Assembly (NCBI GenBank): GCA_009739215.1
Contig: VSJF01000001.1
Coordinates: forward strand, 2,108,001-2,172,000
Direction: 5' to 3'
DNA length: 64,000 nt
From: Floccularia luteovirens
Lineage: Eukaryota > Basidiomycota > Agaricomycetes > Agaricales > Squamanitaceae
Below, piece after piece: positions 2,091-61,734 of the stretch. Numbering within the stretch: the stretch's first letter is position 1; every line of letters begins with the position of its first letter. The position numbers and the translations under genes were made by a program. The notes beneath the pieces were generated by a model. It did not search any database, was not told the origin of the DNA, and saw only the letters and a program-made list of their open reading frames with translations.

Positions 2091-3634
2091 TTACGGAAGG
2101 AATGCAAAAGACTCATACCTCCACCGGATAATGCTGTTATCATTGTTTTCACCAACCCAGAAGGGTCTGAGTGCCGAGGGCAAATGCAACGCCATAATTT
2201 CGCCATTTTCATCGAACAATGCACCATTCTCCAGAAGAGCTACGATGAGTCTTGGAATCGCGGCAGCTGTACCATTCAAAGTATGCGTGAATGGGAGACG
2301 TGACATTGGAGAAGATGAATCGGTCAAGCTATGCTGGTCTGATGGACGATATCGAATATGCAAGCGCCGTGCTTGATAATCTGTGCAATTTGATAGAGAA
2401 GATACTTCTCCCCAGCTTCCACGTCCTGGCATCCATGCTTCAATATCGTATTTTCTGTAGGCGCTTGCGCCTAATTCCTCAGTTGGCATATCAAGGACTC
2501 TTTGTAACATATCAGAGTTTTGGAGGTAAAAATAACTCTATAGAGCTTCACCTGAAAGGAAATTCTAGGCCACTGAGAATCTTTTTTTGAATAGACAACA
2601 TTTCATCCATCATAGACTCGCTCTGGTCTTCTTCAGTCACTGAAAAAAGCTCCACCTTCGTGAATTGATGAACCCGATACAGGCCTCGAGTGTCTGCTGA
2701 ACGGGCACCAGCTTCCTGACGAAATGCATGACCAACTCCAACTACCTTTAATGGGAGTGTGGTCGACGGAAAAACCCTGTTTGCGAACATGCCTCCCAGT
2801 GGGATTTCTGAAGTCCCGGACAGAACTAGTTCAGGAGAGGATGTATTTGTTGGTGTGATATGATACATGTGAGATACAGGTGGGTATGAATCGTCGCGTG
2901 GTTGAAATCCGCACCGTATCGCAATATCAGAACGGACGATATCGGGTGTAGTTACAGGTGTGAAAGCCATTTTGAATAGCAATAGACATAGCCATAGTTA
3001 GTCAATGCGAGCTCGAGAAGTGCAGCTTCATTCTTCAAGAAGTACCAAGATGATCCGGTAACAGTTGAGCCACCTTCCAAGTCCAGAAGATCGAATTTCT
3101 TTGCTACAGCTACGTGGTCACGAGCAGTAGTAGCAGGATAAAGGTGAGGGGCCATGACTTGATATTGCCGTAGCAGCCGCTTCTGGGCCCTAGTGGTGTA
3201 TCCGGATGAGTATCATTTGGAATTAGTATTGCCATGCCGAGACATTGTCTCTCTGCAGCTTCAAGCATGACTTCCAACTCCTTGACCTCTTTCTTCAACC
3301 TGGTAGCTTTTTTAAGTGCTGCATCTTTACCTGATGCATCTTTCATCTCAACCGCCTTCTTCAATTGATCCCCAACTATTGAGCGGGCATTTCGTTTAGC
3401 ATTTAGCTCATTCAATATACGTTTCCATTCAGTATATGCACGCGCTACAGCAGGAATAGCATCTGGAGGAAGTCGGGCCTTTCGATTTTTAGCATTTTGA
3501 ATTTTTAGTACAATATTTTCAGATATGTTTCGATAATCCAGCCGGGGTTGTGGAAGTTCGCTGTTAGGTAGTTTTGAAGAAATTTGGCGTTTTAGTGGCG
3601 CCCTAGCTCGATTCCTGAAAGTTGGATTTGGCAC
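2091..3634 (-). CDS. DIA4: Mitochondrial-type seryl-tRNA synthetase with four +1 frame breaks
   Basis: Class II aminoacyl-tRNA synthetase that charges tRNA-Ser, probably in mitochondria. The basic N-terminus ([17 protein letters not shown]) could act as a targeting sequence. A long charged helical arm follows ([19 protein letters not shown]), then the catalytic core with the motif 2 region FRQEAGA...[13 protein letters not shown] and the motif 3 region [20 protein letters not shown]. One ordinary intron lies around 2503-2560. Between the arm and motif 2 the conserved protein is readable only by changing frame four times, always by +1: near 3184-3192, 3141-3150, 2990 and 2962-2967. The intervening pieces ([48 protein letters not shown]) all match the family. 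No GT-AG intron can account for these. Either the gene is broken, the assembly has insertions, or the insertions are compensated. The N-terminus and C-terminus are otherwise normal. It is divergent from RFC4 with 177 bp between start codons. Confidence 0.85.
2962..2967 (-). other. +1 frame break in SerRS (GF|TPVTTPD)
   Basis: Coding-strand sequence GGCTTTCACACC must lose one base to join GF to TPVTTPD. Removing a T after C (GGC[T]TTC) or the C at 2962 both work. There is no intron signal. Confidence 0.75.
2988..2996 (-). other. +1 frame break in SerRS (LTNYG|MSIAI)
   Basis: Coding strand TATGGCTATGTC. One extra base separates LTNY from MSIAIQNGF; the extra T at 2990 (GGC[T]ATG) is the simplest choice. 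Confidence 0.75.
3141..3150 (-). other. +1 frame break in SerRS (SSHGP|..ATTARDH)
   Basis: Coding strand GGCCCCTCACCTTTATCC. One base must be skipped between SSHGP and [11 protein letters not shown]; the exact base is ambiguous (CCC[T]CAC or a nearby T). Confidence 0.7.
3184..3192 (-). other. +1 frame break in SerRS (DTP|GPEAAAT)
   Basis: Coding strand CCACTAGGGCCCAGAAGC. One base must be skipped between HPDTP and [12 protein letters not shown]. Candidates are the A at 3184 or the T in CAC[T]AGG at 3192. Confidence 0.7.
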
Positions 3635-3811
3635 ATTTGGTAGACAGAAGAGAGCTTACTAGCTTGTTTCAGAGAAGAGTATAGATGCAAACATCGATAT
3701 GTGGTTGGAACGAGAAAGACCATAGAAAATATTTAGGAAGAAGATTGTTTTTGTCACGCGGTGTGACGCAACGCGTTTCAATTTCTGTCGCGTTACATTT
3801 GAAATATCTGC
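3635..3811. promoter_or_regulatory. Divergent promoter between SerRS and RFC4
   Basis: 177 bp lie between the two opposite start codons, so both promoters must share this interval. No clear TATA box or other named element was recognised. Confidence 0.5.
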
Positions 3812-5267
3812 ATGGCCACTTCTTCAACAAAACCAACGGGATCCAATCCTAATGGCTCTGCAGAGCTAGCTTATGAACTTCCATGGTATGTCTATGATAA
3901 ATTTATCAGTTGCTTCTGTCTGTATGAACTGGGCAGGCAGGGTTGAAAAATATCGGCCGAAGGTCTTGGATGATGTTGTTGGAAATACGGACACAATCGA
4001 ACGTCTAAAAGTGATAGCTCGAGACGGAAATTGTCCCCATATCATCATTTCGGTGTGTTCAGCTATTTCCCAAAGTGTCTTTTTTCACTCAGACCTATAC
4101 TGGCAGGGTATGCCCGGAATCGGGAAAACTACAAGTATACATTGTCTGGCGCACCAGCTGTTGGGGGACGCATACAAGGAAGGAGTATTAGAATTGAACG
4201 CATCAGATGAGCGGTGAGATTAACTTGGATCTTCGTGACCTCTCGCCTAATATGAATTACGAAGCGGTATTGACGTTGTACGAAACAAAATCAAGGCATT
4301 TGCGCAGAAAAAGGTTACATTACCTCCAGGACGCCACAAGATTGTTATATTGGACGAAGCTGACAGGTAACCGCCCATATCACTGCTTTCCCACATTTTT
4401 GTAACTAATATCAACCAGTATGACACCTGGTGCGCAGCAGGCCTTGCGACGAACAATGGAAATATTTTCCAATACGACACGGTTCTGTCTTGCATGTAAT
4501 ATGAGCAACAAGATCATTGAGCCGATACAAAGTCGATGTGCAATTCTACGTTATGCTAAACTAAGAGATCAAGAAATTCTAAAACGTTTGTTAGAGATTT
4601 GCGAAATGGAGAAGGTGAGTTGACTCTCATAATCCACAAGGGAGGATGTATTGTATTTATTCGATGATCTTAGGTGGAATATAATGACGATGGACTTACT
4701 GCTCTGATATTTACATCAGAGGGTGATATGCGCCAAGCTATAAACAATCTACAATCTACACACTCTGGGTTTGGTTTTATCTCAGGAGATAATGTCTTCA
4801 AAGTCTGTGATCAACCGCACCCTATTATAATACAAGCTGTGATAAGAGCATGCCTGAAAGGGGACATAGACAATGCCTTGGAAAAACTCAACCAACTCTG
4901 GGATCAGGGATACAGCGCAGTGGACATTGTTGTCACAATTTTCAGAGTAGTCAAGATATTTGACGAGTGAATTGCACATATTATTTTCTTTCTCGTAACT
5001 GACGCATTTCTAGAATGCCTGAGTACACGAAACTGGAATATATCAAGGTTCACAATTTTATTTGGAGGTGTATGTATCCCTTGCTAACTTGATTACAGGA
5101 AATCGGCTTTACTCATATGCGAATACTTGAGGGTGTTGGGACATTGATCCAGTTAGCTGGTCTGGTTGCGCGACTCTGTAAGATGGTGGGTTTGTATTAC
5201 TATGCACTGTTTATACCTGCTTATAGTGATGTTACAGAACGTCAAGCCAGAGCTTCTTCGTATATAA
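3812..5267 (+). CDS. RFC4: Replication factor C subunit 4 (clamp loader AAA+ ATPase)
   Basis: Small subunit of the RFC complex that loads PCNA during DNA replication and repair. It is the orthologue of yeast Rfc4 and human RFC2. The start [10 protein letters not shown] leads to the RFC box [18 protein letters not shown], with the first intron splitting the W codon. Walker A is GMPGIGKTT, followed by [20 protein letters not shown], Walker B VILDEAD and sensor 1 [12 protein letters not shown] with the SRC arginine-finger motif (QSRCAILRY). The C-terminal collar region includes [14 protein letters not shown] and ends [14 protein letters not shown]. All exon joins (about eight GT-AG introns) keep frame, so this gene has none of the +1 breaks seen in the neighbours on either side. 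Confidence 0.93.
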
Positions 5268-5464
5268 ATTAAATGTAATACATAGTTTTGTTATGTATGC
5301 CACCAAAGCTTAGTTGTGCGCAAAGTCAAACAATGCGAAAGCGATCGAAACACCGAGTTGGGTACACACGGTCTTCAGTGGAGATTATTATTCAGCGGAC
5401 ATTATGATACCAAGAAAATTTGCTTGCGTCTATATCATGATCTTCCTTCAATTATACAGTCATC

Positions 5465-6366
5465 ATGTCTCTGGATAATGCCATCACACGCCGTCTTACA
5501 TCTGTAAAGAATGTTATTATTGTGCTTTCAGGCAAAGGCGGAGTGGGCAAATCATCTGTGTCTACGCAGCTGGCACTCAATTTACATATCTCATCACCGA
5601 CAGCAAGGGTCGGGATTCTCGATGTAGATCTTACTGGCCCTTCAATACCGCGGATGTTAGGAGTCGATGGACAGAGCGTGCATCAAAGCAGTGACGGATG
5701 GGTCCCTGTATTTGCGGACGGATCCTCTGCAAGACTAGCATGCATGAGCGTCGGATTTCTGCTCAAAAAGAAGGGAGAGTCGGTGGTGTGGAGAGGACCG
5801 AAGAAGAATGGAATGATCAGGCAATTTCTAAGTGACGTCCGATGGGGTGACTTGGATTATCTTGTTATTGATACGCCTCCTGGTAAGTCTCTTACTGCCA
5901 CGCTGATTCTACTCTGCTTTTTACACAATTTATATATTAGGTACATCAGATGAGCATCTTTCACTGATGGAGCACATGGCTGGACTGCACTCTCGTATTT
6001 CCGCAGTCATTGTTACGACACCACAAGCAGTGGCTTTGATGGATACTATGAAATGTCTTTCGTTCACTCGCGCAGTAAACTTGCCTGTCCTAGGACTTAT
6101 TGAGAACATGAGCGGCTATGTATGTCCATGTTGTGGGGAGGTTAGCAACGTGTTTCTCAACCGGAGGGGGAGAGTCGATGGCAAGCAAAGAAAAACTGAA
6201 ATTTCTGGGAAGGCTTCCTGTTGACACGGAGCTTGTGAGTTTGCTAGATGGGGGAGAAGGGGGAGCACTGGTGGAGAAGTACGAGAATACGGCAACGGCC
6301 AAGATGTTCGGGAAGATAACGGAAGAGATTAAATCCCAGCTCAATGAAAATAAAATAAATAAATAA
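5465..6366 (+). CDS. CFD1: Cytosolic Fe-S cluster assembly P-loop ATPase (CFD1/NUBP2) with one +1 frame break
   Basis: Scaffold ATPase that, with Nbp35, assembles Fe-S clusters in the cytosol. The protein starts [10 protein letters not shown] and has the deviant Walker A motif [17 protein letters not shown], the [15 protein letters not shown] switch region, [12 protein letters not shown], and [15 protein letters not shown] spanning one intron (about 5885-5940). The cluster-binding motif is CPCC in [11 protein letters not shown]. Immediately after it, GEVSNV is in one frame and [20 protein letters not shown] is in the next, with no room for an intron. The shift is +1, within GTGTTTCTCAACC. The length and C-terminus (LNENKINK) are otherwise normal. 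A shorter product ending [17 protein letters not shown] would result if the break is real and uncompensated. Confidence 0.88.
6150..6157 (+). other. +1 frame break in CFD1 ([13 protein letters not shown])
   Basis: One extra base, most simply a T in GTGTTTCTC, separates [10 protein letters not shown] from [14 protein letters not shown] neighbouring intron would have to remove conserved residues or be under 25 nt. Confidence 0.8.
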
Positions 6367-14921: not shown

Positions 14922-16756
14922 TTATCCCTTTTTAATTTGCCGCATCGAAGCTGAACGAGTTTTTGAACGTTGAGGAAGAGGCCTTAGGTTGGCCTTCCCT
15001 GCGCGTAACCCTGAATCTTTCCCCTTGGGTGGAACAAGTTTTGTGTCCTGTAATGTTCCCGAAACCATTTCTTTTACCACAGCTTCCACATCTTGCATGG
15101 AAAGGTCGAACATGTCTGGCTCTCCCTTCGTAACACTCCGGGTGACCTTGCTCGTGGTTGCTAATATATTTATGCTTTCTGCAAAGAGGACTTTTCTCTC
15201 TTCTGCTGGCATGGCATCCACGAGGGCATCGGCAATACGTCGCTTTGATGGGCTGGATTCGTTACTATTGTAGTGTGAGGCTCTTTGGCGCCTTTTGCCA
15301 GGGGAATGTGGGGTTTCGCATCTTTGATTTATAGGAGACGAGATATCCATAGCGGCAATTGACTCCACTGTCGGTGCAATATTTTCTTCATATGTTTTTT
15401 TCGTTCCTGTAACAAAAGTGGTAAGAAAGAGGAATTCTTGTGTGTCTCCTGCACATGGACTCACCTTTCTTTTGGAGCGAGTTGACAATCTTTGTAACTT
15501 TGAAACTGCTACTCATACTAATATTGCCATTAGCAGATACCAGTGTTTGTTGTGTCTCCCAATCCATTGGTCTCATCTTTTTCCAGTCTTCAATTACTCG
15601 ACTGGACCAAGCATCCGTTTCACCCGCGATGTGGTAATCAAAAATATCAGCCCACTCAGCCCCTGGCGCAGTTTTGTTTATAAAGATTGTTCTCGTGTGC
15701 TTCTTTGTCGTCGATGTGGTACCGGCTCTGGAGGCTTTGACAGTCCGGGCAAAATCCTTCACTATTTTCTTGAGGCCATGCACCTTGAGAGAAGTTCCCA
15801 TTACGATGAGCAGATCTGGTTTACGGGAAACATCAGCGGTGTGTATAGCACCAATCTCGTCTCCTAGTGGGTGGGGTTCGTCATAAAGTACGATCGCAGG
15901 GCGAAGAGAGCCGACACGTAATGGACGCGCTGAACGGGCAGTACGAGCTTCTGCTACAGAAGAGAAGGATAATAAATAAACGTTGATAAATGTCATACGT
16001 TGCTACTTACAGCGTTTGAGGCATTCAGGACAACCTGGTGGTGTCCCAGCATTGAACATATCAAGATGTTCTTCCGTACACGGATATTCCGCAGAACAGG
16101 ACATACAACGCACGAGATGGATATCACCATGTAGCTGTACATTGCGAACATCTTTAGGTCTTGATTTTCTGCTTTCCCTTTCCCGCTGATTTTGCTGCTT
16201 GACAAGACGTCCCGAGTAAACCCACGCGTGCTTCGAGGCCGTCAATATTCTGTGTGTATGACCGCAACAATTTTTTCTTGTTATCAAGAATTTTAATGAA
16301 ATGATGTGTCGGAGTTGGCGTTGCACGATCAATAGAGCGCTTGAGCTGGGAGATGAACGTATAAAATACGGCTGTTGATGTCGCGTCGCGAAATAGAGAC
16401 GCGTCAAAAAGGTCACGACCTTTCAAAATTACGTCGGGATATTGTTGTTTGACAAGAGCATATAAGCCATCGGATGAGCGGAAATCCTATAGGAAAACCT
16501 CTATTAGCTGACAGGATACTTGTGCTGGGCAGTATGATTTACTTACAGGGATTCCGGATGAGCACGAAATTCCAGCACCAGTTATAACAACAGCTTTTTT
16601 GCTCTTTGCCACTGCCATTGAGATTTCGGTCAAAGTGCGGCGGGTGTGACTGTCCGTGGTGGATGCATCTAAGTTGAGGGTGATTGTCATTGTCGTAGCC
16701 AATGCAAGTCTAATAGCTTTGGCCTGGTCATTAAACAACTCAAACAAGTCTGGCAT
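14922..16756 (-). CDS. NAD-dependent protein deacetylase (sirtuin, HST3/HST4-like) with one +1 frame break
   Basis: A class I-type sirtuin, probably a nuclear histone deacetylase related to Hst3/Hst4. The NAD-binding motif is VVITGAGISCSSGIP, then FRSSDGLYALVKQQYPD, the catalytic region LRSYTQNIDGLEARVG and VQLHGDIHLVRC (catalytic His), and the zinc cysteines CMSC and CPEC. IVLYDEPHPLGDEI and LLIVMGTSLKVHGLKKIV complete the Rossmann core. The C-terminal extension is Ser/Lys-rich (HSPGKRRQRASHYN) and unlike the core. Start is the ATG at 16756; a GTG just upstream was not used. Within the linker before the LHGD motif, GKGKQKIKT and KDVRNVQLHGD lie in different frames, offset +1 at ACC[T]AAA (16156), with a stop otherwise. 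Confidence 0.88.
16154..16160 (-). other. +1 frame break in sirtuin (KIKT|KDVRNVQLHGD)
   Basis: Coding strand AAGACCTAAAGATGTT. Reading straight gives T-stop; dropping the T at 16156 joins KIKT to KDVRNVQLHGD. No splice sites are placed to do this. Confidence 0.75.
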
Positions 16757-37103: not shown

Positions 37104-38888
37104 ATGACTAGTCGAGTGCGTAAGTACAATGTATCAGCGTATCTTCATCTCTCTCACATTTAATGTCGAGCAGAAAAGGGCGGAACCATCTTCAAGCCAG
37201 TTGTGAAGTCAAGACCTCGGTCGGCTACCACTCAATCTCGTCAGACTTCCATTGTGCAAGACCACCATACCGCAGAGTCACACAATGTGCAACTCGAAGG
37301 TACTGCACACGAAGCGATAGCCCCCATTTTGATCCAAGACACACTGATTCTGCCACACGAGAGACATTCAATTCCACCTATACTAACTACGTCGCAGAAA
37401 GTCAAACTTCCAACGCTCCAAGACCGAACTGGTCCCACCAACATCAATACTCCAATGCCGCCAACGCTTATTGCCGCTCCCAGACCTATATTCACAAGCG
37501 AGAGACCTAATAGTTCCGTCACAACGCACGTCTCTGTTGTTGCTAGTGACCAAGCGATGGGAGCTTTGAGTGTAGAATTTGGTAACGCGACAGGATCCCC
37601 TTCTGCTCTGGACCTCAATATCCATCAATCTAATCCCTTGCTACCTGAGTCATCCAATCCAACACATTCCTGGCATTTCAGTGCAACCCATCTCTCACGC
37701 TTCAGATAATTCCTCTAGTCCGAAGAAGAGAAGGAAAAGTCAAAGCGTCAACGAAGGATATGAGGAGCTTACACTGACCAAACAGCCAAAGTCCATGAGC
37801 GGCACCGATCAGATACGCAGATCAAGAGTGCCATCTCTACCTCCCTTTGACCCAAATGCTAACCCTGGAGAGGAGATTGACCCAACTGTTGTTACAATGG
37901 CGGCATTGTGTAGTGATACAGGCCAAGGAAGAGTGAGCAGCAAAGCTATAGAGATTTTATCAAACCACGCTTCTTGGAAACTCAAGAATAGGGAGAAGCG
38001 AGCACGTATGAGGGCTATGATGGAGGCTAAGAAGTATGGCAGGGATGGCGATGAGGATTCTGGAAATCAAGAGACTACGGAACAGACTAACTATCGAGAT
38101 CAGCCCAGTGCTGAACCAGGAGCGTCGTTGACTACATCACAAGGAGATACAGCACCAGCTGCTGATGAGTTTGATTATACGCAAGACCTAGGTGACTAGC
38201 AGGTTCAACGTGCAAGTCAGAATAGGTCCCAATGGAGAAACCATCATTGATGAGGATTCCCTTGTTGTGGATCGCGTTGAAGGCGAAGACACCGAGCACT
38301 ACACGCATGTTGTTGAGTCAGACACGACGAAGTTCGTCAATTCTGGGACATATGGAAAACGATTTCGAGGCTCACGATGGAGTGCGGAAGAAACCGAATT
38401 ATTTTATGATGTATGGATTTTTTTTTGTTTGGAGACCTTCCGGTTAACGTTGATCAGGCCCTTTCTCAATATGGAGAAAACTACGAGCTTATAGCCTATG
38501 TGTTACCTGGTCGTGACAGGAAGGCTTGTAAGAATAAATTCAAGATTGAAGATAGGAAGAACCATGCAAGAATAAACTACTGTCTAGAAAACAGTATCCC
38601 AGTTGGTGCGCTTTTCTGTATCTGTATTCCTAACCATCGGTTGATTTCAATATTACCTCAGATATCAAAACACTCTCCCGGATGACAGGAAAGGACTTTT
38701 CAGGGCCCGTGCCCGAAATAAAAATTCCGAAAGCTTCTGCAGCCCATACAGTAGTCGCAGAGGAAGTTATTCACGTAGAGGATGGTTCATCTCGTCCTCA
38801 GAAAGCCAGAAAAAGGAGTCGGAGTCGGCCCTCTGCCTCCAATGATGAGGCTGTGATAATTGGAGACGTGGACAATTTTGATACATAA
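37104..38888 (+). CDS. BDP1: TFIIIB subunit B'' (BDP1) with one +1 frame break
   Basis: RNA polymerase III initiation factor. Exon 1 is MTSRV; splicing gives MTSRVQKGGTIFKPVVKSRP, a start typical of fungal BDP1. A disordered region ends with the basic SSSPKKRRKSQSVNEG. Then come DPTVVTMAALCSDTGQGRVS and the SANT domain: RFRGSRWSAEETELFYDALS, QYGENYELIAYVLPGRDRKA, CKNKFKIEDRKNHARINYCL. The C-terminus ends IGDVDNFDT. At about 38187-38191, FDYTQDL and TSRFNVQVRIGPNG are in different frames offset by +1, with no intron possible. The earlier join near 37581-37707 is also a +1 frame change but could be a 127-nt intron (SVEF-DNSSSPKK). Confidence 0.88.
38187..38194 (+). other. +1 frame break in BDP1 (YTQDL|TSRFNVQV)
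   Basis: GACCTAGGTGACTAGC reads into a stop. Dropping one base (T in ACC[T]AGG at 38189, or the G at 38191) restores TSRFNVQVRIG. Confidence 0.78.
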
Positions 38889-40573: not shown

Positions 40574-43500
40574 ATGATGAGTCAAGGTATTTCAACTGTC
40601 ATTCCTGCTATGCAGTTTATTTATTTCTGCAAGACTTCGATCCCTCGCAAGATCCCTACGCATATGACGAAACAAATTATGCCATGGAAGAGGACGAAGA
40701 TGGTTATGAGGAAATTACCCAAGAAGATTGCTGGACAGTGATATCCAGCTTTTTTGAACAAAAAGGACTTGTTCGTCAACAATTAGACTCATTTGACGAA
40801 TTCGTGCAGAATACGATGCAAGAGCTTGTGGACGAAAATTCAGATCTTATACTTGACCAGGCAGACCAACACACGGGACATGACACAGATATGACGCGCC
40901 GTTATGAGATAAAATTTGGTCAGATTTACCTCTCTCGCCCGACAGTGACGGAAGCCGATGGATCTGTCGTTCCTGTGTTTCCTCAGGAAGCGAGGCTGAG
41001 AAATTTGACCTACTCCGCTCCATTGTACATTGAAATGAGGAAAAGGGTCCTCATTGGACGTGAAGATCCTGAGGGAATGCCAGGTGACATAGCATGGGAA
41101 GCAGAACATGAGGATCATCCAGATGATGCCACCAAAGTATGGATTGGCAAGGTGAGTTCGAGGCAATTGTCAAGTACGCTCCAGCTTTACAGTATTCATT
41201 TTTACACTAGGTACCTATCATGTTACGGTCAACTTTCTGCATTCTACGTGACCTCCAAGATCAAGATTTATATGATTTAAACGAATGTCCTTATGATTCT
41301 GGAGGATATTTCATCATCAATGGCTCGGAAAAGGTGCTCATTGCTCAAGAGCGCATGGCTACAAATCATGTCTACGTTTTTGCGAAGGCACAGCCCTCGC
41401 CTATTAACTTTCTTGCGGAAATCCGTAGCGCTGTTGAAAAAGGAGGGAAGACCATAAGTCAGTTCCAAGTCAAAATGTTTCATAGAAATCAGGAGCGGTC
41501 GGTATGTCAATTCAGTGTTTTGCTTGATATATTGAAACTAAGTATCATTAGTTAGGAAATGTCATGAAAGCTACAATTCCCTACATCAAAGTTGATATTC
41601 CAATATGGGTCGTATTTCGTGCTCTCGGTGTAATATCTGATCGTGATATCTTGGAACACATCTGCTACGATATGCAAGATGCACAGATGCTCGAGATGCT
41701 CAAGCCTTGCATTGACGATGGTTTCGTTATACAAGACCGAGAAGTTGCACTGGATTTTATTGGAAACCGTGGGACCACAACAGGCCTTTCCCGAGAGCGT
41801 CGTATTCGTTACGCTCAAGAGATCCTCCAGAAAGAGATGTTACCACATGTGTCTATGGCCGAGGGTTCAGAGTCGAAAAAAGCATATTTCTTTGGTTATA
41901 TGATTCACCGTCTTCTTCTTGCGGCCTTGGAACGTCGTGAGCTTGATGATCGTGACCACTTCGGTAAAAAGCGCCTTGATCTTGCTGGTCCACTGCTCGC
42001 CAATCTTTTCCGTATGTTGTTCAGAAAATTAACAAAAGATGTATATCGATATTTACAAAAGGTCCGATCTTTTATTCTTTCTATTAGATCCTTCTCATAC
42101 CATAAATATATAGTGTGTCGAAACCCACAAAGAATTCAACCTTGCCCTCGCCGTAAAGCACCAAACTATCACCAATGGTCTGAAATACTCGCTAGCCACC
42201 GGAAACTGGGGAGATCAGAAGAAGTCCATGTCATCTAAAGCCGGAGTATCACAGGTTCTCAACCGATATACATACGCTTCCACATTATCACATTTACGTC
42301 GTTGCAATACTCCTCTCGGACGAGAAGGCAAAATCGCCAAACCCCGTCAGTTACACAACACACATTGGGGAATGGTTTGTCCTGCAGAAACTCCCGAGGG
42401 ACAAGCTTGTGGTCTCGTTAAGAATTTAGCCCTCATGTCTTGCATATCCGTCGGATCATATTCTGCACCAGTTATTGAGTTCCTGGAAGAATGGGGTTTG
42501 GAGTCCTTGGAGGAGAATGCCCACTCATCCACTCCGTGTACCAAAGTCTTCGTCAATGGGGTTTGGATGGGTGTCCATAGAGACCCTGCTAACCTTGTTA
42601 AGACAATAAAGAAGTTGAGACGGAAAGATGATATTAGTCCTGAGGTTTCGGTCGTCCGCGATATCCGAGAGAAAGAATTACGGTTATACACAGACGCAGG
42701 ACGCGTATGCCGCCCCCTCTTCATAGTCGAGAATCAACAGCTCGTGCTGCAGAAGAAGCATATCAGATGGCTCAATAGCGGTGTGAACGACGAGGGAGAG
42801 GAATACAAATGGGAGCATCTTGTCAAAGGCGGGATTATTGAACTTCTGGACGCAGAGGAGGAAGAAACCGTAATGATTTCAATGACCCCAGAAGATCTAG
42901 AGAACTCGCGTCTCCAACAAAGCGGCGTTGACCCACATGCGAATGACGGAGAGTTCGATCCAGCCGCGCGATTGAAAGCAGGAACACACGCCCATACTTG
43001 GACTCATTGTGAAATCCATCCAAGCATGATCCTCGGAATATGTGCCAGTATTATACCTTTCCCGGACCACAATCAGGTATGTTTTGTAGATGTCCTACGC
43101 ACAATCTCTAATAATCATTCAGTCCCCCCGTAATACATATCAATCTGCTATGGGCAAGCAAGCCATGGGAATTTACTTGACAAACTTCTTGATTCGAATG
43201 GATACTATGGCAAACATTCTTTATTACCCGCAGAAACCTCTTGCAACGACTCGTTCCATGGAATACCTTAAGTTCCGAGAACTCCCTGCAGGGCAAAACG
43301 CCATTGTGGCTATTCTTTGTTACAGTGGCTATAATCAGGAAGATTCCGTCATTATGAACCAAAGTTCGATCGATCGTGGGTTGTTCCGTAGTATATATTA
43401 CCGAAGTTACATGGATCTGGAGAAGAAATCTGGTATACAACAATTAGAAGAATTCGAGAAACCACTGAGAGAAAACACTCTACGAATGAAACACGGCACT

Positions 43501-44718
43501 TACGATAAATTGGAGGATGATGGCTTGATTGCCCCTGGAACTGGTGTAGCCGGTGAAGATATAATCATTGGCAAAACTGCCCCGATAGCTCCTGACAGTG
43601 AGGAGCTTGGTCAGCGTACACGTACTCATACCCGTCGGGACGTTTCAACGCCATTAAAGAGCACAGAGAGCGGTATTGTTGACCAAGTCTTGATTACAAC
43701 AAACTCTGAAGGGCAGAAGTTTGTTAAAGTCCGGGTCAGGTCGACCCGTATACCTCAAATTGGTGACAAGTTTGCTTCACGTCATGGTCAGAAGGGTACA
43801 ATTGGTATTACATACCGCCAAGAAGATATGCCTTTTACCGCAGAAGGCATTGTCCCAGACATCATAATCAACCCTCACGCAATCCCTTCTCGAATGACTA
43901 TTGGTCACTTGGTCGAATGTCTACTATCAAAGGTTGCAACACTCATCGGAAACGAAGGAGATGCAACTCCATTCACGGATTTAACAGTCGAGTCTGTTTC
44001 CACCTTCTTGCGGCAGAAAGGATACCAATCACGAGGTCTTGAAGTCATGTTCCATGGTCACACGGGGCGGAAGCTTCAGGCCCAAATATACTTGGGACCA
44101 ACATACTATCAACGGCTTAAGCACATGGTTGACGACAAAATTCACTCGCGAGCACGAGGTCCGGTTCAAATTCTAACAAGACAGCCTGTAGAAGGTAGGA
44201 GTCGTGATGGTGGCTTGCGTTTCGGAGAGATGGAGCGTGATTGTATGATATCGCATGGTATTGCTGGATTCTTAAAGGAGCGTTTGTTCGAAGCGAGTGA
44301 TGCTTATCGCTTACACGTTTGCGATATGTGAGTGGGTGACACGTATTCACAGATACAATCTCACACATTCTCCTTAGTTGTGGCCTTACTGCAATTGCTA
44401 ACCTTGTGAGTACACTGTAATCGTGGAGTTCTGTGCAATTCTCATCCTTACATCATCAGAAAAAGCAAAGCTTCGAGGTACATGATTTTTCTAAATCTTT
44501 TGTTCTATAATCTTTATCTTCCTCCAGTGCCGTGCCTGCAAAAATAAAACTGCATGTTCTCAACTGTACATTCCATACGCTGCAAAATTGTTGTTCCAGG
44601 TATGATATTCTAGATGACGGATTGAACCTCACTTATCGATATGCAACAGGAATTACAAAGCATGAACATAGCTGCCCGCCTTTACACGGTGTCGTCTGGT
44701 AGGATAAGAGACTCCTAG
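40574..44718 (+). CDS. RPB2: RNA polymerase II second-largest subunit RPB2
   Basis: Catalytic-cleft subunit of Pol II. The short first exon MMSQ joins [20 protein letters not shown]. Conserved segments run in order: [20 protein letters not shown] (lobe), [40 protein letters not shown] (fork), [31 protein letters not shown] motif [40 protein letters not shown] (hybrid-binding), and KARGPVQ-type region. The C-terminal clamp zinc site is CDICGL...CRACKNK, ending [12 protein letters not shown]. About 1,200 residues, all exons in frame: no +1 break in more than 3.6 kb of coding sequence, a useful internal control for the frame anomalies nearby. Confidence 0.96.
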
Positions 44719-44816: not shown

Positions 44817-47330
44817 CTAATCATCTCTATTTCTGGCGTTGTTGCCAATAAGCCCTTGTCTCTCCGTCTCATGGCCGTCGTTATCCTCCCCGGACACACG
44901 ATTACCTCGTTTTATCTTATTCCCGGATTCGTCCTCGTCCTCATCTTCATCACCAATCTCGAATACAACATTATCCTCGGCCATGGAATCCGGGCCACCG
45001 CGTCTGCCCCCAACCAATGTAGCGTCGTCATCATCATCGTCCCTGAGCCTGCCGTGACCGTGCATTGTCTCCAGATCATAGTCTTCCGCGTCTTGTTCAT
45101 CTTGAGCAATTTCATCCGACATAGCTAATGTAATAACGAAACGATTGTCAGTTCGATGAATACTAATCATGACGAAAATCATAACATATCTTCTATTATT
45201 GGCGGATGGCCTCCATAAGAATGAAATGGCTACAAAAGCCACGAGGTAAAGTAGTGCCAACCACCCGTCCAGAAGCCACCACCGAACGCGCCAAGTTTTT
45301 GCGGCATAATCTGTTATGATAGATGAATACTTCACAAGTACCACTACCCTCAAAATACTCACCCTCTGCAAGACGTCCAGAAAAGGAGAAGGAAGAGACA
45401 ACGAAAAAGGCCGCTATGACAAGGACAGTAAATATCAGGATATGACGCAACCTTTCGAACATCCTCAGTTTATAACGTTGCTTGCGTGACTTGAGTTGTA
45501 CAATGGTTGCTAAGTATTCACAAATGTCAGGATATCAACGCCATTGAACTGTTTCCAAGACGAACCATTAAGTGAATACATTATCCATAGTAAGAAAGCA
45601 CTAAGGGTGAATGCAAGGGGAACTATGAATAGGAGAAGAAGTAGGGCAGAAGTAGATTCCAGTTCAAGTTCCACGATCCCTATGGCATACAATACTTGAT
45701 TGTTGTCAGTTCAAGTGCCACAGTAAAGCACGATTAACTTACTGCCGAAGAGGAAATGAGCTGCAGCAAGGCCTTGGCACTTTAGCATGGTTCGACCAAG
45801 CGACTCATTGACAACACTCAAACCCAGGGATACAACAAGCAACATGAAGAATGACATTGAATTTCTTCCTGCATCCAAAACAGCCACTGAACCGAAATAG
45901 TTTAGTAGCATAGCAATGAAATCTTACGGGTTACTAACCAACAATGAGGAATATTGTTGAAGCAGCACTTTTTCCATGCGCATTAAGGTACCGGTAATAT
46001 GCTGTCGTGAGGGTTAACAACACAATGTAAATTTGCAATGAAATGCACACCCCAGTTTGCCACCATCTCTATGACAAGCAAACCCACAAGACCTGACAGG
46101 TAATACTTTTGAAATCCATCAGTAAACAATTCCAGACCCGACTTGACAGGATAGTTCACCTGAATAGGAAGTAATTCATGTATATGTTGATAACATAACC
46201 ACCCCCACATTGCAGCAATTAAAGTATAAACTATGAACATGGAGAAATAGAACTAGATGGAACAGAATGTTAAATTGCTAATCGGCCACTAGAAGGTGCA
46301 TTAGTACTTACGTTAACTTTTGGATAATCTGTAGCTGGTAGTTGCCCGTCAAAAGTATTCTTGAATAGAACGGAACCTGTAAACGATGGGTGAGGTGATA
46401 TATCCGTATCTGCACGACGCGTCCCTCCAGATTTTACAGAAAATGGCACAACAGCTAGAAGTAGGAGTTACAGATTGCAATGCGAAAATAAGGCGCCATA
46501 AACATACCAACACAGTAATATCCCGTTTTTTTAACAGGATACTGGATTGGTTCCGTATAAGAGTAAAGTCCATCTGGACTGGGGTTTCTCGTTTGTATTG
46601 TTGAGATGGACTCAGAGAAGTCACGCCTCCAAGGCGAATCATACTTGCTAGCTGGCAGGGGTGGGATTGTTTCCTGAGTCCCAAAGCGAGTCATCTGCGG
46701 AGGTGCGCGATGGAGCGCTTCCCGGCAATACCACCCTCGCCAACCAGAAGGTTGAATTGTCCAGAGACCTTCCCTCAGGAAGGTCAAGGATGAAACGACC
46801 AAGTTGATCCCGGGTACAAAATCCTGCAGACATCGCACTTGATGTACAAACATATGTTTTCTGTGAACATTAGAGATTAAATCTTTTCGAGATATCCTAA
46901 GTTCAGAACTCACAGGTATAAGGACATCTGTTGGGTCTGTTATTTTGCCAAGATATTGTGAGTCTGCCCACTCATAAACCACCATAGCAACTTGACCCTG
47001 GGACGAAGCATCGAAACTGACTATATTTATGATGTAAGTTCGTAATAAATGATAGGGCATTGAAAGCTGGATGCACCATTTATATATGTCGATGCACCAC
47101 CCCACATTCCACTACATACTTGCCGTGAATAGTCTGATGATTCATAGATGTTGAGGAACAGTACAGATGGGATGACAGCGGAGACTCATACCTGTGTCGA
47201 AAATGGGAACTTCATAGGAGTATACGGTAGGAAGAGTAAATAGAGAGAACCAAAACGCGATGTTGACTAAATGAAAGTATGGCCAGTGCATGGAAGCCAT
47301 GACAAGAAGTGTTGTTGTTGCTTGTTTCAT
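44817..47330 (-). CDS. PTM1/GPR107-like seven-helix membrane protein with one +1 frame break
   Basis: Member of the lung 7-TM receptor/GOST family found in Golgi and endosomes. The start MKQATTTLLVMASMHW opens a signal peptide (LVNIAFWFSLFTLPTVYSYE). A lumenal domain with conserved cysteines follows (CSGMWGGASTYIN, TGYYCVAVVPFSV), then seven helices: FYFSMFIVYTLIAAMWGWLC, YYLSGLVGLLVIEMVANW, STIFLIVVAVLDAGRNS and others down to WWLLDGWLALLYLVAFVAIS. The tail is very acidic (DEDEDEDESGNKIKRGNR). At about 46648-46653 the lumenal domain changes frame by +1 between SGNNPTPA and SKYDSPWRRDFSES, next to an in-frame TAG. The alternative TTG start upstream is not needed. Confidence 0.82.
46648..46655 (-). 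other. +1 frame break in PTM1-like gene (NNPTPA|SKYDSPWRR)
   Basis: Coding strand CCTGCCAGCTAGCAAGTATG. Reading straight meets TAG; skipping one base (AGC[T]AGC) restores SKYDSPWRR. No splice signals fit. Confidence 0.75.
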
Positions 47331-47392: not shown

Positions 47393-49220
47393 ATGCTCGG
47401 TGACGACGAAGATGTATTTGACAGTGTCACTTGGGAGTCTCCAACTGCACCAGTTTATGACAATCACAATGCACCTCCATCTGGTCCTGGTTTCAGGCAG
47501 AGTACTTCAGATACAAACGAGGATCCGCACCAACCAAAGTGGGAAGGCCACCTTATCACTTTCGTAAAAGACCCCGTGAAGGAATTGGCAGAAACTAAAG
47601 ATGCTTATGTCTCGTACTTGGTATCAGCTAAAGTGTGTGGACTTTCAAATTTCTATTCCAGTTTCTCGTATTAATATTCGCGGAGACGAACCTACCAATA
47701 TTCTCTACCCCAAACCCCTCCTCACGACGCCGTTTTCAAGATTTTGTATTTCTTCGCGAACACCTTGTGCGTGATTTTCCTGCATGCGTTGTCCCTGCCC
47801 TACCAGACAAACACCGGTTAGGTATGTACATTCCCTGTTGTCCGAGTACTTTCTGACGTTACTGTGCAGAGTACATCACGGGTGACAGATTTAGCCCAGA
47901 ATTCATGGAGCGTCGACGACTGGAGTAAGTCCATTCTGCAGCCCGCTCAAACTTGAGAAATAGGCTGATTAAATACGCCATCAACAGTCTGCACAGATTC
48001 CTACAACGACTATCCCGGCATCCAACGTTACAGCGCAGCACACTCCTCCGGGCATTTTTTGAGTCAACAGAATGGGTAAGACATTCAAATTCAAATTCAA
48101 AAAAGATCTGACGGCCTTGTCCAGCATGTACACATGCATCATCATATTGCACATCCACCAGGCGCCTGAGCCATCTCCTGGTATCATTGATAACATATCA
48201 GATACTCTTCTCAATGCTTTTGCCCGCGTCCGGAAACCTGATGAGAGGTTCCTCTCCATTCGGGAAAACGTCGACAAGTTTGAAGAAGGGCTGGTGCTAT
48301 CTGAAAGACTGTATAATCGCGTGAGAAGTAGAACAAGCGGTGAGTTTCTATTCACACATCCCTTTTACCTTATTTTGTGGTCTGAGGCTGAATGAGATGG
48401 CAATCCCGAATCTGGTGAAGATCTTACGGCGGATTATCATGACTTGGCTGTCGCCGTCCAAGGTTTAGGTTTCTTAGAGTCCGGCATTACAGACCCGTTG
48501 AATCACTTCTCAAATACTCTGCTGGAATTCTCGGCACTGTTGCGGCATCTGGCACGTATAGTGTCCCATCATGGGTTGCTTTAACTGAATGTATTTCCAG
48601 ACACAAACTACAACCGACCCTTTGTTGATTCACCTCCATTCTTTGCTAACTTATTCGTATGCGAATCGTGCGGTTCTAAAACTAAGAGATCAGAAACAGC
48701 TCGATTTTGAAGAGTTATCTGATTACTTGTCTGGTCTCACATCAGAACGAGACAGGCTCGCGGCTGTTATCAGTGGACATGCTGGTAGTTCAGGCCTTGG
48801 ACTTAGTGCTTATCTGAAGGACCGCGTTGATGCTATTCGCGGTGCAGATGATGACAGAAGTAGAGTCGAAAAGATGCGGAAATTAGATGTCAAAATCAAA
48901 GAAGTAAGTGTCACTTTCTTTCAACAGTACTCTTGTTGACGCAGCGCGACTATTAAAGCTCCAAGATGCAGTTACAACGGCTCATGAAACGTCAGATGCA
49001 TTCAATGACGAGACAGTTGCGGGAACAAGCTATCTTCCAATATTCTAAAGAATCGGAAATGAAAGAGATGTTGGGAAACCTTGCAGATGGACAAATTGAA
49101 TTTTACAAAGCGGTAAGTATGGATGCAATCTTTGATAGTCTGATTACTTATAAGATACAGGCAATGGAAGAGTGGGAAAGAATTATACCTATCATCCAAC
49201 GCATACGTGTTGACGTTTAA
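47393..49220 (+). CDS. SNX4: Sorting nexin SNX4/ATG24 (PX-BAR) with one +1 frame break
   Basis: PI3P-binding sorting nexin for endosome-to-Golgi recycling and selective autophagy. The PX domain is spread over several exons: EGHLITFVKDPVKELAETKD, YVSYLVSAKTNLPIFSTPNP, SRRRFQDFVFLREHLVRDFP, LPDKHRLEYITGDRFSPEFM. The BAR region includes SNTLLEFSALLRHL, YSYANRAVLKLRDQKQLDFE and GLTSERDRLAAVISGH. Near the C-terminus LQDAVTTAHETSDAFNDET is in one frame and IFQYSKESEMKEMLGNLADG in the next (+1, window 49013-49030). The end is AMEEWERIIPIIQRIRVDV. Genes for PX sorting nexins are reported near the MAT-A locus of other Agaricomycetes. Confidence 0.88.
49013..49030 (+). other. +1 frame break in SNX4 (AFNDET|IFQYSKES)
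   Basis: Between ETV and IFQ one base must be skipped in ACAGTTGCGGGAACAAGCTATC. Candidates include the G at 49019 (giving VREQAIFQ) or the T in AGC[T]ATC. Confidence 0.75.
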
Positions 49221-50385: not shown

Positions 50386-50493
50386 CGCGCTGTTCGGTAC
50401 AGAGGGTCAGAGTAACAACACGTGTTTTATAATCAAAACATCATGCAAGTCAATTGAACTCACCCCCACAGTCGGCGTTTATGTACCTCAGTC

Positions 50494-52557
50494 ATGTACG
50501 AAGACGACAAGGGCCGACACAACGATCCTGATGCTAACGGACCAGACCATTCTCTTTTCTACAGAATCACTAAATGCTGCTTCCTACTCAGCGCACTCGC
50601 ATATATATCGGTCTTTTTGTCCGGTGAATTCCCTTCCCTTCCGCAGCGGAGCAGGAATCCACCTTCTCGAGTGAACCGCCAATGCCGATTTCCTTTACCC
50701 AAACTTCTAGCTCATACACCACCTCACGAATCAAACAATGAAATCATCAAGGCTTCGATATCTTTGCGCAATGTTCTGACAGATATAGTAAATAGAGGGT
50801 TCATTGATAGTTTGAATGTTGCCGTGGTCACCCCTGCGGGAACAGTCTTTGAGAAAGGTTATGGGGTTCTAAGAGCAAACGAAACAATAAACGGTAAAAG
50901 AGGGACAGTTGACCGCAATTCAATCTACCGGATTGCAAGCATCACCAAAATGTTTACTGTACTCGAGACACTCATTCTTCGCGAGCGCGGCGCCTTGAGC
51001 TGGTATTATCTTTACTTCAGCTCTGCATTTTACCATTTAACACCGTTTACTTACATTCAGGGACGATCCTGTCAGCAAGTTTCTTCCAGATCTCAAATAC
51101 CCTAGTTATGGGTGGTCAGAGAGAGTACTTGAAGGGAGGCACGATCCCGGCTACATCTCAGAGAGATATGCCTCGTATTACATTGCGCCAATTGGCAGCA
51201 CACATGGCTGGTAAGTTTTGTTGAATAAAGTAGATAAGGTTGTGCGATAAGCCATTCACAGGCATTGGTCGAGATTACCCTCCCATTGATATTGGGGATT
51301 GGCCCCGCAATGATATGAAATACGATCCGAAACCCCCACAGGAAAGCTATGAACTTATCCTAGATTCCGTATCAAAATTTCCCTTAGTCAACCTTCCTTA
51401 CGAATACCCAGTATATTCCTAATATCGGCATGTCTCTTTTGGGTTTAGCAAACGTTGCAGCTAACAAAATGATGAATGGAGACAAAGCTAAGCCTGAATC
51501 TCACAAGGACCTTTTGAAAAGGGATATTTTCGACAAGATCGGACTAAATAGCAGCTTCTACGAGATTCCTAGCGATCCGGATGTCAAGCAACGTATCACT
51601 GTACCTTCGGAAGATACTAGCTGGGTTGTAAGCGCCATCTATTTCAAACTTCACTATATGTAATCTCAGTACAAAACAGGATTATACCTTTGATAACAGT
51701 ATTGCTGCAGCAGGAGGTCAATATAGTTCTTTGGGGGATTTAGTGACCATTATGCGCACATTTCTATCGCCAACTGCAGAAAATGGTGTCATATCTGAAC
51801 ACACAGTTCGGGAATGGTTACGTCCTTTACACGCATGGCAAGACGGCTTTCATCAAGTCGGAGCTCCCTGGGAAATAATTACTGGGACGAATCAAGTGCC
51901 TCTATATACCAAATGTGTGTTATGAAATTTGGCCTTTTTCTATCTTTCAACTAATGAGCGGGACTACATGTAGCGGGATCGATCAATGGGTATCATTCAC
52001 AATTTGCACTCGATCCCGAATTCTCGTATGGTGTAATCGTTCTCACAACAGGCGCAAGTGTCAGTACAGGTTCAATCGTTTCGAAAATTGTATCCCATTT
52101 CCAGCCAGCTTTTGCAAAAATATTAGAACAGCATGTAGGAGAACGTTATGCAGGGGCATGGTCATCGAATAAAAATGATACAGCGGTTGTTACAGTACAC
52201 CACGGGATATTGTACCTCCATAAGCTCGTAATTCGGGGGACAGACGTGCTACGTCTTGTGCAAAATCCAGGATCCAAATCCCCTAGAAAGGCTAGGCCTG
52301 CACAACTCTGGACGACTGGACGACTAGACGAATTTAGGCAAGTTGTAATCTGGAATGACACATGCTTCTTATTCAAACATCTATACAGAATAGCCATTGG
52401 TCGACCGGACACCGATCCAGACGAAGTAGGGTGTCTGCCATCCTGGGTTACTATTGATATTGGGCTGTATGGTCGTGGCGCTCCAATTGACCTTATTTAT
52501 TGGGAAGATAACACACTTGTATATCCATCTGCTGGTGTACGCTTAGTGAGATCATAA
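50494..52557 (+). CDS. Beta-lactamase-like serine hydrolase with two +1 frame breaks
   Basis: Member of the class C beta-lactamase/LACTB superfamily common in Agaricomycetes; probably a secreted or membrane-anchored esterase or peptidase, not an antibiotic resistance gene. An N-terminal hydrophobic segment (CCFLLSALAYISVFLSGEFP) may anchor it. The nucleophile motif SxxK is in YRIASITKMFTVLETLILRE. The YSN motif is in EYPVYS|NIGMSLLGLANVAA and is interrupted by a +1 break at 51420, where the straight frame hits TAA. An earlier +1 break at about 51127-51152 separates YGWSERVLEG from DMPRITLRQLAAHMAGIGRD. Downstream AAAGGQYSSLGDLVTIMRTF and SGSINGYHSQFALDPEF are intact, and the C-terminal domain ends YPSAGVRLVRS. 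Confidence 0.8.
51127..51153 (+). other. +1 frame break in beta-lactamase-like gene (SERVLEG|MPRITLRQ)
   Basis: YPSYGWSERVLEG and RDMPRITLRQLAAHM are offset by +1 without an intron. GGC[T]ACA at 51152 and GTAC[T]TG at 51129 are both possible. Confidence 0.72.
51417..51420 (+). other. +1 frame break inside the YSN motif
   Basis: TATTCCTAATATC should read Y-S-N-I. One extra C or T turns the third codon into TAA. Confidence 0.82.
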
Positions 52558-53408: not shown

Positions 53409-55571
53409 TTACCAGTCATATTTGACCATATCATCCGCATTGACGATGGCAGATGAGATGAATGAGCGGGCTTCTACCCAAACCCATACCTACGCAAAAT
53501 GTCAAAATCGGGTTCGAGAGTTACATTGCATCAAGATAGATAAACCGTACCTTCAACAATGCACCTAGATTACTTGATGGAAGGTCTTTTGTCATGGATT
53601 CTCTGGTAGCCATTTGACCACCAAGCTTCCTCAATATCGGAAGGGCACTTGCGAACAGATCCAGTGTTGGGTCCAGCCTACGTCCAATTCCTTCCAGAAG
53701 CAGGATCGAGATGACAGTGTTGATGAAATCGCCTTCCATTTTGACGTGATGCTCTCGAACAGACTTGAGTACGTCTGTTAGCAGGTCTGATATTTTGATC
53801 TGACCAAGAGAAAACGTCTTCCTTTTGATGCTGAGTACGAGATGTTGCATCTTTAATGCAAATGTTTCTGTATCGATAGCGAGCTCCGGATAACGAGAGC
53901 GTTCAACCATGAGGTGTCCTGTGCGGTACCCATCAAACTCAGCTACGGCTCGGAAGAGATCAAGAAAGTTCTTTCGGTTTGTTGCATCAAGTGTGGTAAT
54001 GAGACCTGCATCAATGAATACAATCTCCGGAATATATCCAATGCTATGGAGTGAACTTAGTTTTGCGCGCCATTCGTCGGGGGTCTGGGCAAGTGTACGC
54101 AAGCTCGAGACTATTTCGTCGGACTCTGAATGACCCGGGTGTACTATGAAAGTGTTGTCGTTCTGTTTATTGAATATATGATTATAGACTGTTCTTTAAA
54201 AGTTCTTGAGTGGTGGGTGGCTTGTTAAACTTGATCATAATGTTGCCAGGATGAAGGTCTGCATGGACAAAATTATCGAGAAGCAGCATATTCTATCGAA
54301 GAATCCATTCCATAAGTTATGTATCCATACGTGCATGGTTACGGTACTCACCAGAAAAGCATCTAGGCCAATCGTGGCCACCTCGTCGTCATAGGGACCA
54401 CCACCATTTCTCAAAAATAATTCAAGAGGCAGAGCATTTTGATATTCCTCTACGAGTAAGTCTTTGGTGGACCATATTTTCAAGGGCCGAGGAAAGGTTA
54501 CAGGTACTTTTCTATGCGCAAAGTTATTCTCAAAAGCCAATAGATTGTCTGCCTCGTTCCTTAGGTCAAGTTGCTGATACATCATAGTGCCAAATGATTC
54601 AACTTCTTCAGGAAGGGATAGCCATTGCATGCCGGGAAGAATAGATATACAGTGTGCAAAGAAGGACATGATAGATAAATCACGAGATATGGTCTTGGAT
54701 ACACGCGGATGGAGGATCTTAATTGCTACAGTGGCGGTTGGGACAGACGTTGGAGGATGCTTGAGAATCACTGGATTAAGCGCCCCTGCGCGTCTTTTGC
54801 GAGAACGGCGAGGACCAAGGTATGACGGTGGGATGAGATCTTGCTTAAGAGTTGCCCTGTATACCTGTATAAATTTCAGTTTTATATCAAGTAAGTAGAG
54901 CAAAAGTGACGCACTTGTGCGATTGCGCCTGTCCCAATTGGCACTTGGTCAAAGTGTTCAAAAACTTGGTCAAATGGGCGTTGAAAAACATTTTCGATGA
55001 CTTTTTTGGTATGAGACAAGGAATGTGGCTTTCCCTGAGAGTGCAAAGAACCCAATCTCTCGCATAAGTAGACAGGAAATAGGTCTGCACGCGATGCTGC
55101 CCATTGAGCAAGCTTGATGAAAGTTGGACCGGCAGACTCCATCTGACGGACCAATAGACCATACCACCAAATTGCGCCCCATCTATCACCCTTGAGCTTC
55201 TTTTCGGGTTTTCCTATAAGAAGCATCGGGCTTGTGAGGATAACGGGAACAAAAAGAGTGAAGAGAAAGATGAAACGCTTTGCGGTGAGAAGGGGTTCCC
55301 ATAACCTGTCGCGTAAGAAGTCTAGGATGCGAGAAGACAGAGAGAGATGGGATTCTAAAGGGGAAAGGATGATGGGTTGGGGAAGAGTGGGACAGGGACA
55401 TGGTATGAGGGTGGGTGAAGAGAGGACGAGGGGAGAGAGGGGAGGGGCAGGGGAGAGAGAGTAGAGAGCAAGACCGCTTGTGAGAGGAAATAGGTAGTAA
55501 AAGCGGGGTAAACGACGAGCAAGGAAAAGGGAACGACAACGGAGAAGAGGCCTTGAGAAGACAGCCGCCAT
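53409..55571 (-). CDS. ADCK2-like atypical kinase (ABC1/UbiB family) with one +1 frame break
   Basis: Mitochondrial protein of the UbiB/COQ8-like family, closest in layout to ADCK2 and yeast Mcp2, linked to lipid and coenzyme Q homeostasis. The Arg/Leu-rich N-terminus (MAAVFSRPLLRCRSLFLARR) fits mitochondrial import; a membrane segment (FIFLFTLFVPVILTSPMLLI) follows. The family motif KxGQ appears as SAGPTFIKLAQWAASRADLF, the Ala-rich-like loop as VPIGTGAIAQVYRATLKQD, and the catalytic loop as NFVHADLHPGNIMIKFN, with FIDAGL as the metal-binding motif. Between them, at 54186, a +1 break: ELLKNS meets CTATAA; dropping the T gives an open frame HNHIFNKQNDNTFIVHPGHS. The end is AIVNADDMVKYDW. Confidence 0.85.
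54183..54190 (-). other. +1 frame break in ADCK2-like gene (LLKNS|HNHIFNKQND)
   Basis: Coding strand AACAGTCTATAATCAT. Dropping T at 54186 (GTC[T]ATA) removes the TAA and leaves the frame open through to the next conserved block. The only alternative is a 27-nt intron that does not keep frame. Confidence 0.75.
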
Positions 55572-60503: not shown

Positions 60504-60743
60504 TGATAGATTATACCTCATTACTTATTGTAAACTAAATCATCCATCTCTTTGGTGTAAATGTAATATCCCTCACATGTGTATGAAACAATTCAAAATG
60601 AAGCATTTTTTTTTCACGTCCTGAAATGTATAATTGATTATACATTGAATTAGATCACGTTCTATCTTTATCACACTACCTTTCCTTATCCAATCCTAGC
60701 CACAAGATTCAACCAAGCTCCACAAACATCTTTCGATACTACC

Positions 60744-61734
60744 ATGGTGAGGTCCACTATATTGCAGCTGTGGCTTATGTGCTGAATGAAAAATAGGACT
60801 CTTTCGTGAATATGGCTAAGCAAGGCTACGAAACCTACAAATCACACTGTAAGTCTGAGCTACCCTTTGATCACAGATCCGATCCCCCCTTAGGTGATGA
60901 TCAGGAAGATCGTTAATCTCCCTGCCCTCACTAGCCGATGTAGCAAAGACAGGTGGGCAAGAGTATAATTCTCCTCACCATTCTGGACAGGACGGGTCTG
61001 GAAATAATGGCCCCGATTGTAAGTAAATCATATCTAGTTTTCTGGCAAGCAGATTTGTAAGACTTTCTTGGTGGTGCAGTCGATCGCGACGAAGTAGTGA
61101 GGAGCGCTCAAAGCCATGGTCAAGGAGACAGTTCTTTGTTTTCCTCTGCGCTCAGTTTCCTGTCCGATAACAAGGTAGGTTTTCTATATATTAAGACGCT
61201 AAATATATAATAATTTTGCTTGTAGCAAGCCCACACTGAACCTGTTAATGAGGATGAAGTTACCAGAGCGCACGCCCAGGCATACAACAACTGGAAACAC
61301 CAGTAACATGAGTGCCGATTTGTTGGGTGGTGCTGCTGCGATGCAGGTAAGTTCTCCCCTATTTGCCGCAGTGCAGGGATATCCAGTCAATTAACTTGTA
61401 TATTCAGATTATGAAACAATTCGTTTCTGGAGGACAAATCTAGTGGTAGTTCTGGCGGGAACTCTCAGACTCAACTAATTAGTATGGCTATGGCGGAGGC
61501 GACAAAACTCTTCGATAAGTCTGGTGGTGCAGCATCTGGTAACAAACAGGACGCTGTCAACGGAGCTGCTATGACTGTTATGAAACTTCTTGTTCAATCT
61601 AAATTCAGTGGTGGCGTTATGGGAGGGGGGAATTCAGGCGGGCTTGGTGGTTTGATGAGCCTTGTGAGTGTTTGCACAACTGATGACATCGGAATTAACT
61701 GACAATAAAATAGGCATCTCATTTTACTAAATGA
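60744..61734 (+). CDS. Beta-flanking protein (beta-fg) with two +1 frame breaks
   Basis: Protein of unknown biochemical role, well known as the gene flanking the A mating-type locus in many Agaricomycetes. The start codon is followed at once by an intron (60747-60796). Exons give DSFVNMAKQGYETYKSH, FDRDEVVRSAQSHGQGDSSL, FSSALSFLSDNK and EDEVTRAHAQAYNN. At 61292 the frame shifts +1 to GNTSNMSADLLGGAAAMQ, and at 61435-61441 again +1 between QFVSGG and SSGSSGGNSQTQLISMAMAE. The conserved core ATKLFDKSGGAASGNKQDAV and NGAAMTVMKLLVQSKFSGG is intact, ending GLMSLASHFTK after a last intron. Direct neighbour of HD1 on the left. Confidence 0.82.
61290..61293 (+). other. +1 frame break in beta-fg (AYNN|GNTSNMSADLL)
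   Basis: AACAACTGGAAACACC. Skipping the T at 61292 gives NNGNTSNMSADLLGG; the straight frame ends at TAA soon after. Confidence 0.75.
61435..61441 (+). other. +1 frame break in beta-fg (FVSGG|SSGSSGGNS)
   Basis: GGAGGACAAATCTAGTGG reads into TAG. Skipping the C at 61435 or a T in ATC[T]AGT restores SGSSGGNSQTQLISM. Confidence 0.75.

Follow-up and report, generated by a model that had tools for sequence, protein, structure and literature searches.

Heterozygous bases written twice: a probable origin of recurrent +1 frame breaks in conserved genes of a Floccularia luteovirens genome assembly

Frameshifting of the +1 Ty1/Ty3 type is associated with a shared slippery heptamer. In Euplotes, programmed +1 ribosomal frameshifting occurs in many genes and is specified by internal stop codons, as described in excerpts of two accounts (PMC10235951, PMC4759687). 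Apparent changes of frame can also originate in the assembly. In the Trypanosoma brucei Lister 427 genome, according to its description, haplotype collapse gave apparent frameshifts, with indel errors near allelic variants (PMC8445201); the HiCanu paper states that collapsed heterozygosity leads to a mosaic consensus in which coding sequences contain frameshifting errors (PMC7545148). Here, we describe a 64,000-nt stretch of the basidiomycete Floccularia luteovirens (GenBank assembly GCA_009739215.1; contig VSJF01000001.1, positions 2,108,001 to 2,172,000; hereafter called the window), which is part of a genome of 27.0 Mb in 22 contigs. Several conserved genes in the window are interrupted by single excess bases (+1 breaks) so that, as in Euplotes, a +1 shift would seem to be required in many genes. 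We consider it probable that these breaks are an assembly artefact, in which heterozygous bases of collapsed haplotypes have been written twice; most likely, the feature does not represent a new way of decoding genes. A literature search on this assembly found no paper.

The genes for a mitochondrial-type SerRS, for SNX4 and for an ADCK2-like protein were each compared with 120 listed relatives, while the window genes were viewed in three frames. At the protein level, the nearest named relatives belong to the Agaricales, the identity with Crucibulum laeve being 71% (SerRS), 92% (SNX4) and 80% (ADCK2). The models of these three profiled genes comprise 1,586 residues, SerRS being modelled without its first exon and ADCK2 without its last, and homologous blocks cover 471 of 481 residues in SerRS, 460 of 468 in SNX4 and 634 of 637 in ADCK2. 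The blocks are joined across gaps of 48–66 bases that can be read as introns, and across seven one-base excesses, four in SerRS, two in SNX4 and one in ADCK2 (Table 1). The blocks that flank these breaks are contiguous in nearly all of the 120 relatives per gene, with one base in surplus. The four SerRS breaks occur within 232 bases, and because nearly all relatives keep the columns concerned without gaps, an intron is implausible there.

The original prediction had listed recurrent +1 breaks in otherwise intact genes, with no intron able to connect the conserved blocks. The homologs confirm the breaks at these seven sites. The exclusion of introns is plausible for SerRS, but it fails for one SNX4 junction, readable as a GC-AG intron by the homolog column pattern R-H-x-T-Q and the segment offsets, and for the PTM1-like gene, where the frame changes other than that near 46677 read as GT-AG introns by eye. 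All seven shifts are +1 and none is −1, as had been claimed for every site. The modelled parts of the three genes are free of stop codons, deletions and −1 changes, in agreement with the predicted absence of other lesions.

Breaks also occur elsewhere in the genome. A whole-genome search for ten protein families returned at least 455 stretches, from which neighbours in different frames without room for an intron were picked by eye; for several families, a part of the candidates was scored (e.g., 123 of 275 for kinases and 9 of 121 for sugar transporters). The frame changes checked outside the window, in five conserved genes (CCT7, CCT8 and three kinases), are all in the plus direction, and no −1 change was found by eye among the stretches listed for the ten families. 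A suspected break in a kinase gene on contig C17 proved to be an intron on reading. A SNF2 pair (C1:1382089-1382105) and a DEAD pair (C17:1515504-1515516) appear in the candidate listings and were left undecided.

To characterise the excess bases, we used a set of 16 anchored zones, 11 in the window and five outside; the doubled CCT7 pair, the sirtuin and PTM1 were left out. Each of the 16 zones admits a reading as a synonymous third-position transition pair (C/T or A/G), where random insertion would yield 11.05 (tail 0.0017), although at most of these sites it is not the sole reading. The original prediction, by which the phase within the codon varies, is thus not confirmed. Amongst the seven profiled sites, a synonymous transition reading exists at all seven, and at six under a stricter rule (at SerRS site A, no reading passes the latter, owing to a flanking residue that is rare in the relatives); the null rate per profiled site amounts to 0.28 under random insertion and to 0.27 when a neighbouring base is duplicated. 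The log-likelihood over these seven sites is −11.3 for a doubled single-nucleotide polymorphism (SNP) in random order, −15.9 for a doubled SNP in ascending order, −18.9 for random insertion and −23.0 for neighbour duplication, so that the doubled-SNP model is ahead of the last two by about 7.7 and about 11.8 log units, respectively.

At SNX4 site 3, the sole reading allowed by the relatives specifies Thr with either letter of the A/G pair, and it involves neither a homopolymer nor a T after a C. Since this site has no run and admits the A/G pair only, both a homopolymer error and an extra T after a C are excluded there; the latter had been proposed for every site, and it also fits poorly at SerRS site A and in ADCK2. 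As to the order of the two letters, eight of the 16 sites permit the ascending order only, four permit the descending order only (the C22 kinase, one CCT7 site, CFD1 and ADCK2), and four permit both. The mixed order and the −15.9 score led us to abandon, as a firm claim, the idea that ambiguity codes were expanded in strictly alphabetical order (Y to CT, R to AG).

The genome is heterozygous in the one place sampled. Positions 254401-257300 of contig C6 and 1258201-1261100 of contig C18 are allelic, with 99.5% identity over 2,900 bases: they differ by 14 substitutions, of which 13 are transitions and 10 lie within 170 bases, and by no indel. Contig C6 (275 kb) looks like a haplotig of part of C18, which suggests that both haplotypes are present in places. 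In this one short pair, where the haplotypes are kept apart, there are 0 excess bases in 2,900 bases. The frame breaks resemble the C6/C18 differences in that both involve transitions, clusters and silent positions.

Together, these observations argue for heterozygous bases of collapsed haplotypes being written twice. The sequenced mushroom would have carried two slightly different haplotypes, collapsed by the assembly in some stretches, where some heterozygous substitutions would have been emitted as both alleles, in consecutive letters. A site written twice lengthens the sequence by one base, hence every break is +1, and a preference for third positions and for C/T or A/G pairs is what neutral heterozygosity in conserved genes looks like. 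We infer that the letters in each pair represent the two alleles and that a consensus or post-processing step is responsible, which could be consensus calling, the polishing of mixed reads, or the expansion of ambiguity codes. An aligner that favours two gaps over one mismatch may give each allele a column of its own, and both letters would then be written if the consensus rule accepts the two columns. Expansion of ambiguity codes would imply that the letters always stand in alphabetical order, for which the data give no clear support. Both haplotypes presumably carry intact copies of the genes. The directional consensus error offered amongst the original explanations comes close to this, the sharper form being that both alleles stand in a row.

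As in the T. brucei assembly, allelic variants in a collapsed assembly would give rise to false indels that truncate real genes; the causes given there, in the sections cited, are repeat-length differences and misalignment near variants, while here single substitutions appear doubled, with +1 in all tested cases (PMC8445201). The HiCanu remark names the same class of artefact, and the doubled-allele signature is not described in the portion of that text examined (PMC7545148). In an assembly that is otherwise contiguous, doubled alleles would silently break conserved genes, among them those for a tRNA synthetase, chaperonin subunits and kinases, and too many pseudogenes, split genes and false introns would be counted. 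The pattern mimics pervasive +1 recoding so closely that even a careful reader may be misled. Such assemblies could be flagged without reads by scanning for +1-only breaks with third-position transition pairs.

Several points weigh against the doubling of alleles. At three profiled sites, the synonymous transition reading specifies a residue that is rare in the relatives: Ala at SNX4 site 1 (5 of 120), Ser at SerRS site B (3 of 120, with Pro in 103 of 120) and Gly at SerRS site C (8 of 120, with Ala in 106 of 120). At SNX4 site 1, a synonymous transversion reading retains Gly-Pro (92 of 120 and 81 of 120 relatives, respectively), and at the ADCK2 break, a conservative Ile/Val pair is also possible, better backed by the relatives than the synonymous readings. 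The alleles at the break sites are deduced from the assembled sequence alone, the allelic stretch examined is short and lies on contigs other than that of the window, and one 186-base probe of CFD1 found no second copy in the genome. A homopolymer reading is possible at six of the seven profiled sites. Finally, our impression is that the breaks are more densely spaced in the window than in the protein families surveyed elsewhere; patchy heterozygosity is the sole account we can offer for this difference.

The homopolymer readings would suit plain consensus insertion errors of long reads, either of a random base or by extension of a homopolymer, independent of heterozygosity, and short indels causing frameshifts are the commonest errors before polishing in the part consulted of the Vertebrate Genomes Project (VGP) paper (PMC8081667). 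We nevertheless regard such errors as an unlikely cause. Long-read errors insert or delete, as stated in the cited sections on T. brucei (PMC8445201), so that −1 events would be expected too, and only the plus direction is seen; the synonymous transition reading at each of the profiled sites exceeds the rate that insertion errors would give, and SNX4 site 3 lacks a run.

Real extra bases in the nuclear genome, inserted after wobble positions at many sites and either bypassed through a +1 shift of the ribosome or eliminated from the RNA, with essential genes tolerating them, appear highly improbable to us. Conserved protein does flank each break, only +1 is seen, and SerRS, CCT7 and CCT8 are affected, the last two being essential in yeast. 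A zero-frame stop codon follows at four sites (BDP1, the sirtuin, LACTB-like site 2 and the C1 kinase), as a shift of the Euplotes kind would have it, but none is present at the break at SNX4 site 3 or SerRS site C. By eye, without a motif program, no common motif or slippery heptamer was seen among the 16 site strings, unlike in Ty1/Ty3-type shifting. The heterozygosity of the genome and the fit of synonymous third-position pairs favour heterozygous transitions over skipped or removed insertions, for which the proposed C[T] signature is not universal and which thus find no support. If true, real insertions would make this fungus a second eukaryotic lineage beside Euplotes with a non-triplet code. 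Allelic decay, by which the assembled haplotype would hold pseudogenes, could account for several broken genes in one region and is scarcely credible. Against it stand the four breaks in a single SerRS stretch that is conserved in other respects, the lack of nonsense codons, −1 changes and larger lesions where the three profiled genes were modelled, and the fact that conserved genes on different contigs are affected alike.

Five further breaks in the window, in the genes for CFD1, a sirtuin, BDP1 and a LACTB-like serine hydrolase (the beta-lactamase-like gene of the original prediction), are less fully backed than the profiled seven. In CFD1, Pfam ParA positions 123-189 match through base 6155; from base 6157 on, in the next frame, positions 191-245 match with 23.7 bits, under the cut-off of 27.1. 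In the sirtuin, SIR2 positions 12-95 match in one frame and 99-139 in the next, the second piece (16.1 bits, E 0.011) being below the cut-off. The predicted breaks in these two genes have profile or Protein Data Bank (PDB) support, and that in BDP1 is enclosed by stop codons, its homolog support being limited to the downstream block, which matches TFIIIB B'' chains in PDB. The two LACTB-like breaks rest on open frames and on motifs at both breaks that we take to be those of the family: nine pieces were submitted to the Pfam search, and the four without a family are all LACTB-like, so that one of the five pieces of this gene, the N-terminal one, matched. The predicted integrity of RPB2 is borne out over the one 413-residue frame examined. 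The PTM1 change near 46677, the C-terminal part of glycogenin, the LEA-like gene and “beta-fg” are weakly conserved in sequence and were not decided as breaks.

Table 1. Frame breaks and compared features in the window (window positions) and elsewhere in the genome (contig positions).
Feature	Position	Strand	Type	Basis
SerRS site A	3181..3193	−	+1 break	120 homologs; synonymous A/G reading in Leu codon
SerRS site B	3135..3141	−	+1 break	120 homologs
SerRS site C	2990..2996	−	+1 break	120 homologs
SerRS site D	2962..2968	−	+1 break	120 homologs; third-position C/T or T/C pair possible
CFD1 (cytosolic Fe-S scaffold ATPase)	6150..6162	+	+1 break	Pfam ParA and PDB 6g2g alignment
Sirtuin	16154..16175	−	+1 break	SIR2 profile, three-frame view; upstream limit loose
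BDP1 (TFIIIB B'')	38191..38200	+	+1 break	Three-frame view; stop codons of both frames enclose the zone
RPB2 part	43090..44328	+	Control	Single open frame; 403 of 413 residues match Rpb2 chains (best 3h0g_B), unbroken
SNX4 site 1	48161..48167	+	+1 break	120 homologs
SNX4 junction	48552..48600	+	Not a break	Readable as 49-base GC-AG intron
SNX4 site 3	49013..49019	+	+1 break	120 homologs; relatives allow one reading, a doubled A/G pair
LACTB-like site 1	51119..51134	+	+1 break	Three-frame view; loose placement
LACTB-like site 2	51417..51423	+	+1 break	Three-frame view
ADCK2-like	54187..54196	−	+1 break	120 homologs
CCT7	near C1:3061400		Net +2	Family search and reading of the gene
CCT7	near C1:3061505		Further +1	Family search and reading of the gene
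CCT8	near C14:328593		Plus break	Family search and reading of the gene
Kinase	near C16:1521627		Plus break	Family search and reading of the gene
Kinase	near C1:2651665		Plus break	Family search and reading of the gene
Kinase	near C22:631820		Plus break	Family search and reading of the gene

In the LACTB-like gene, the phase is not kept with an obvious GT-AG intron at the junction 51620-51670, where a third excess base or a different splice site is possible. Similarly, joining the presumed first exon of SerRS (3610-3720, minus strand) by the best donor and acceptor creates a stop codon, and a further excess base or a further exon may be present at the start of this gene. An ab initio gene model that allowed for frameshift states yielded 0 shifts in 314 kb at a penalty of −11 or stricter, and 11 +1 and 7 −1 shifts at −7; it was abandoned as too weak and uninformative on direction.

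Repeats were noticed on several contigs. A class I tRNA-synthetase stretch is present twice near a contig end (C17:23787-24158 and 37482-37844), the copies lying about 14 kb apart. Similar cytochrome P450 genes form a tandem cluster over C2:542493-559273, the examined part of which is repeated at 69–86% identity. Downstream of the window, a 4.3 kb direct repeat of about 80% identity is located at approximately C1:2183800-2192400.

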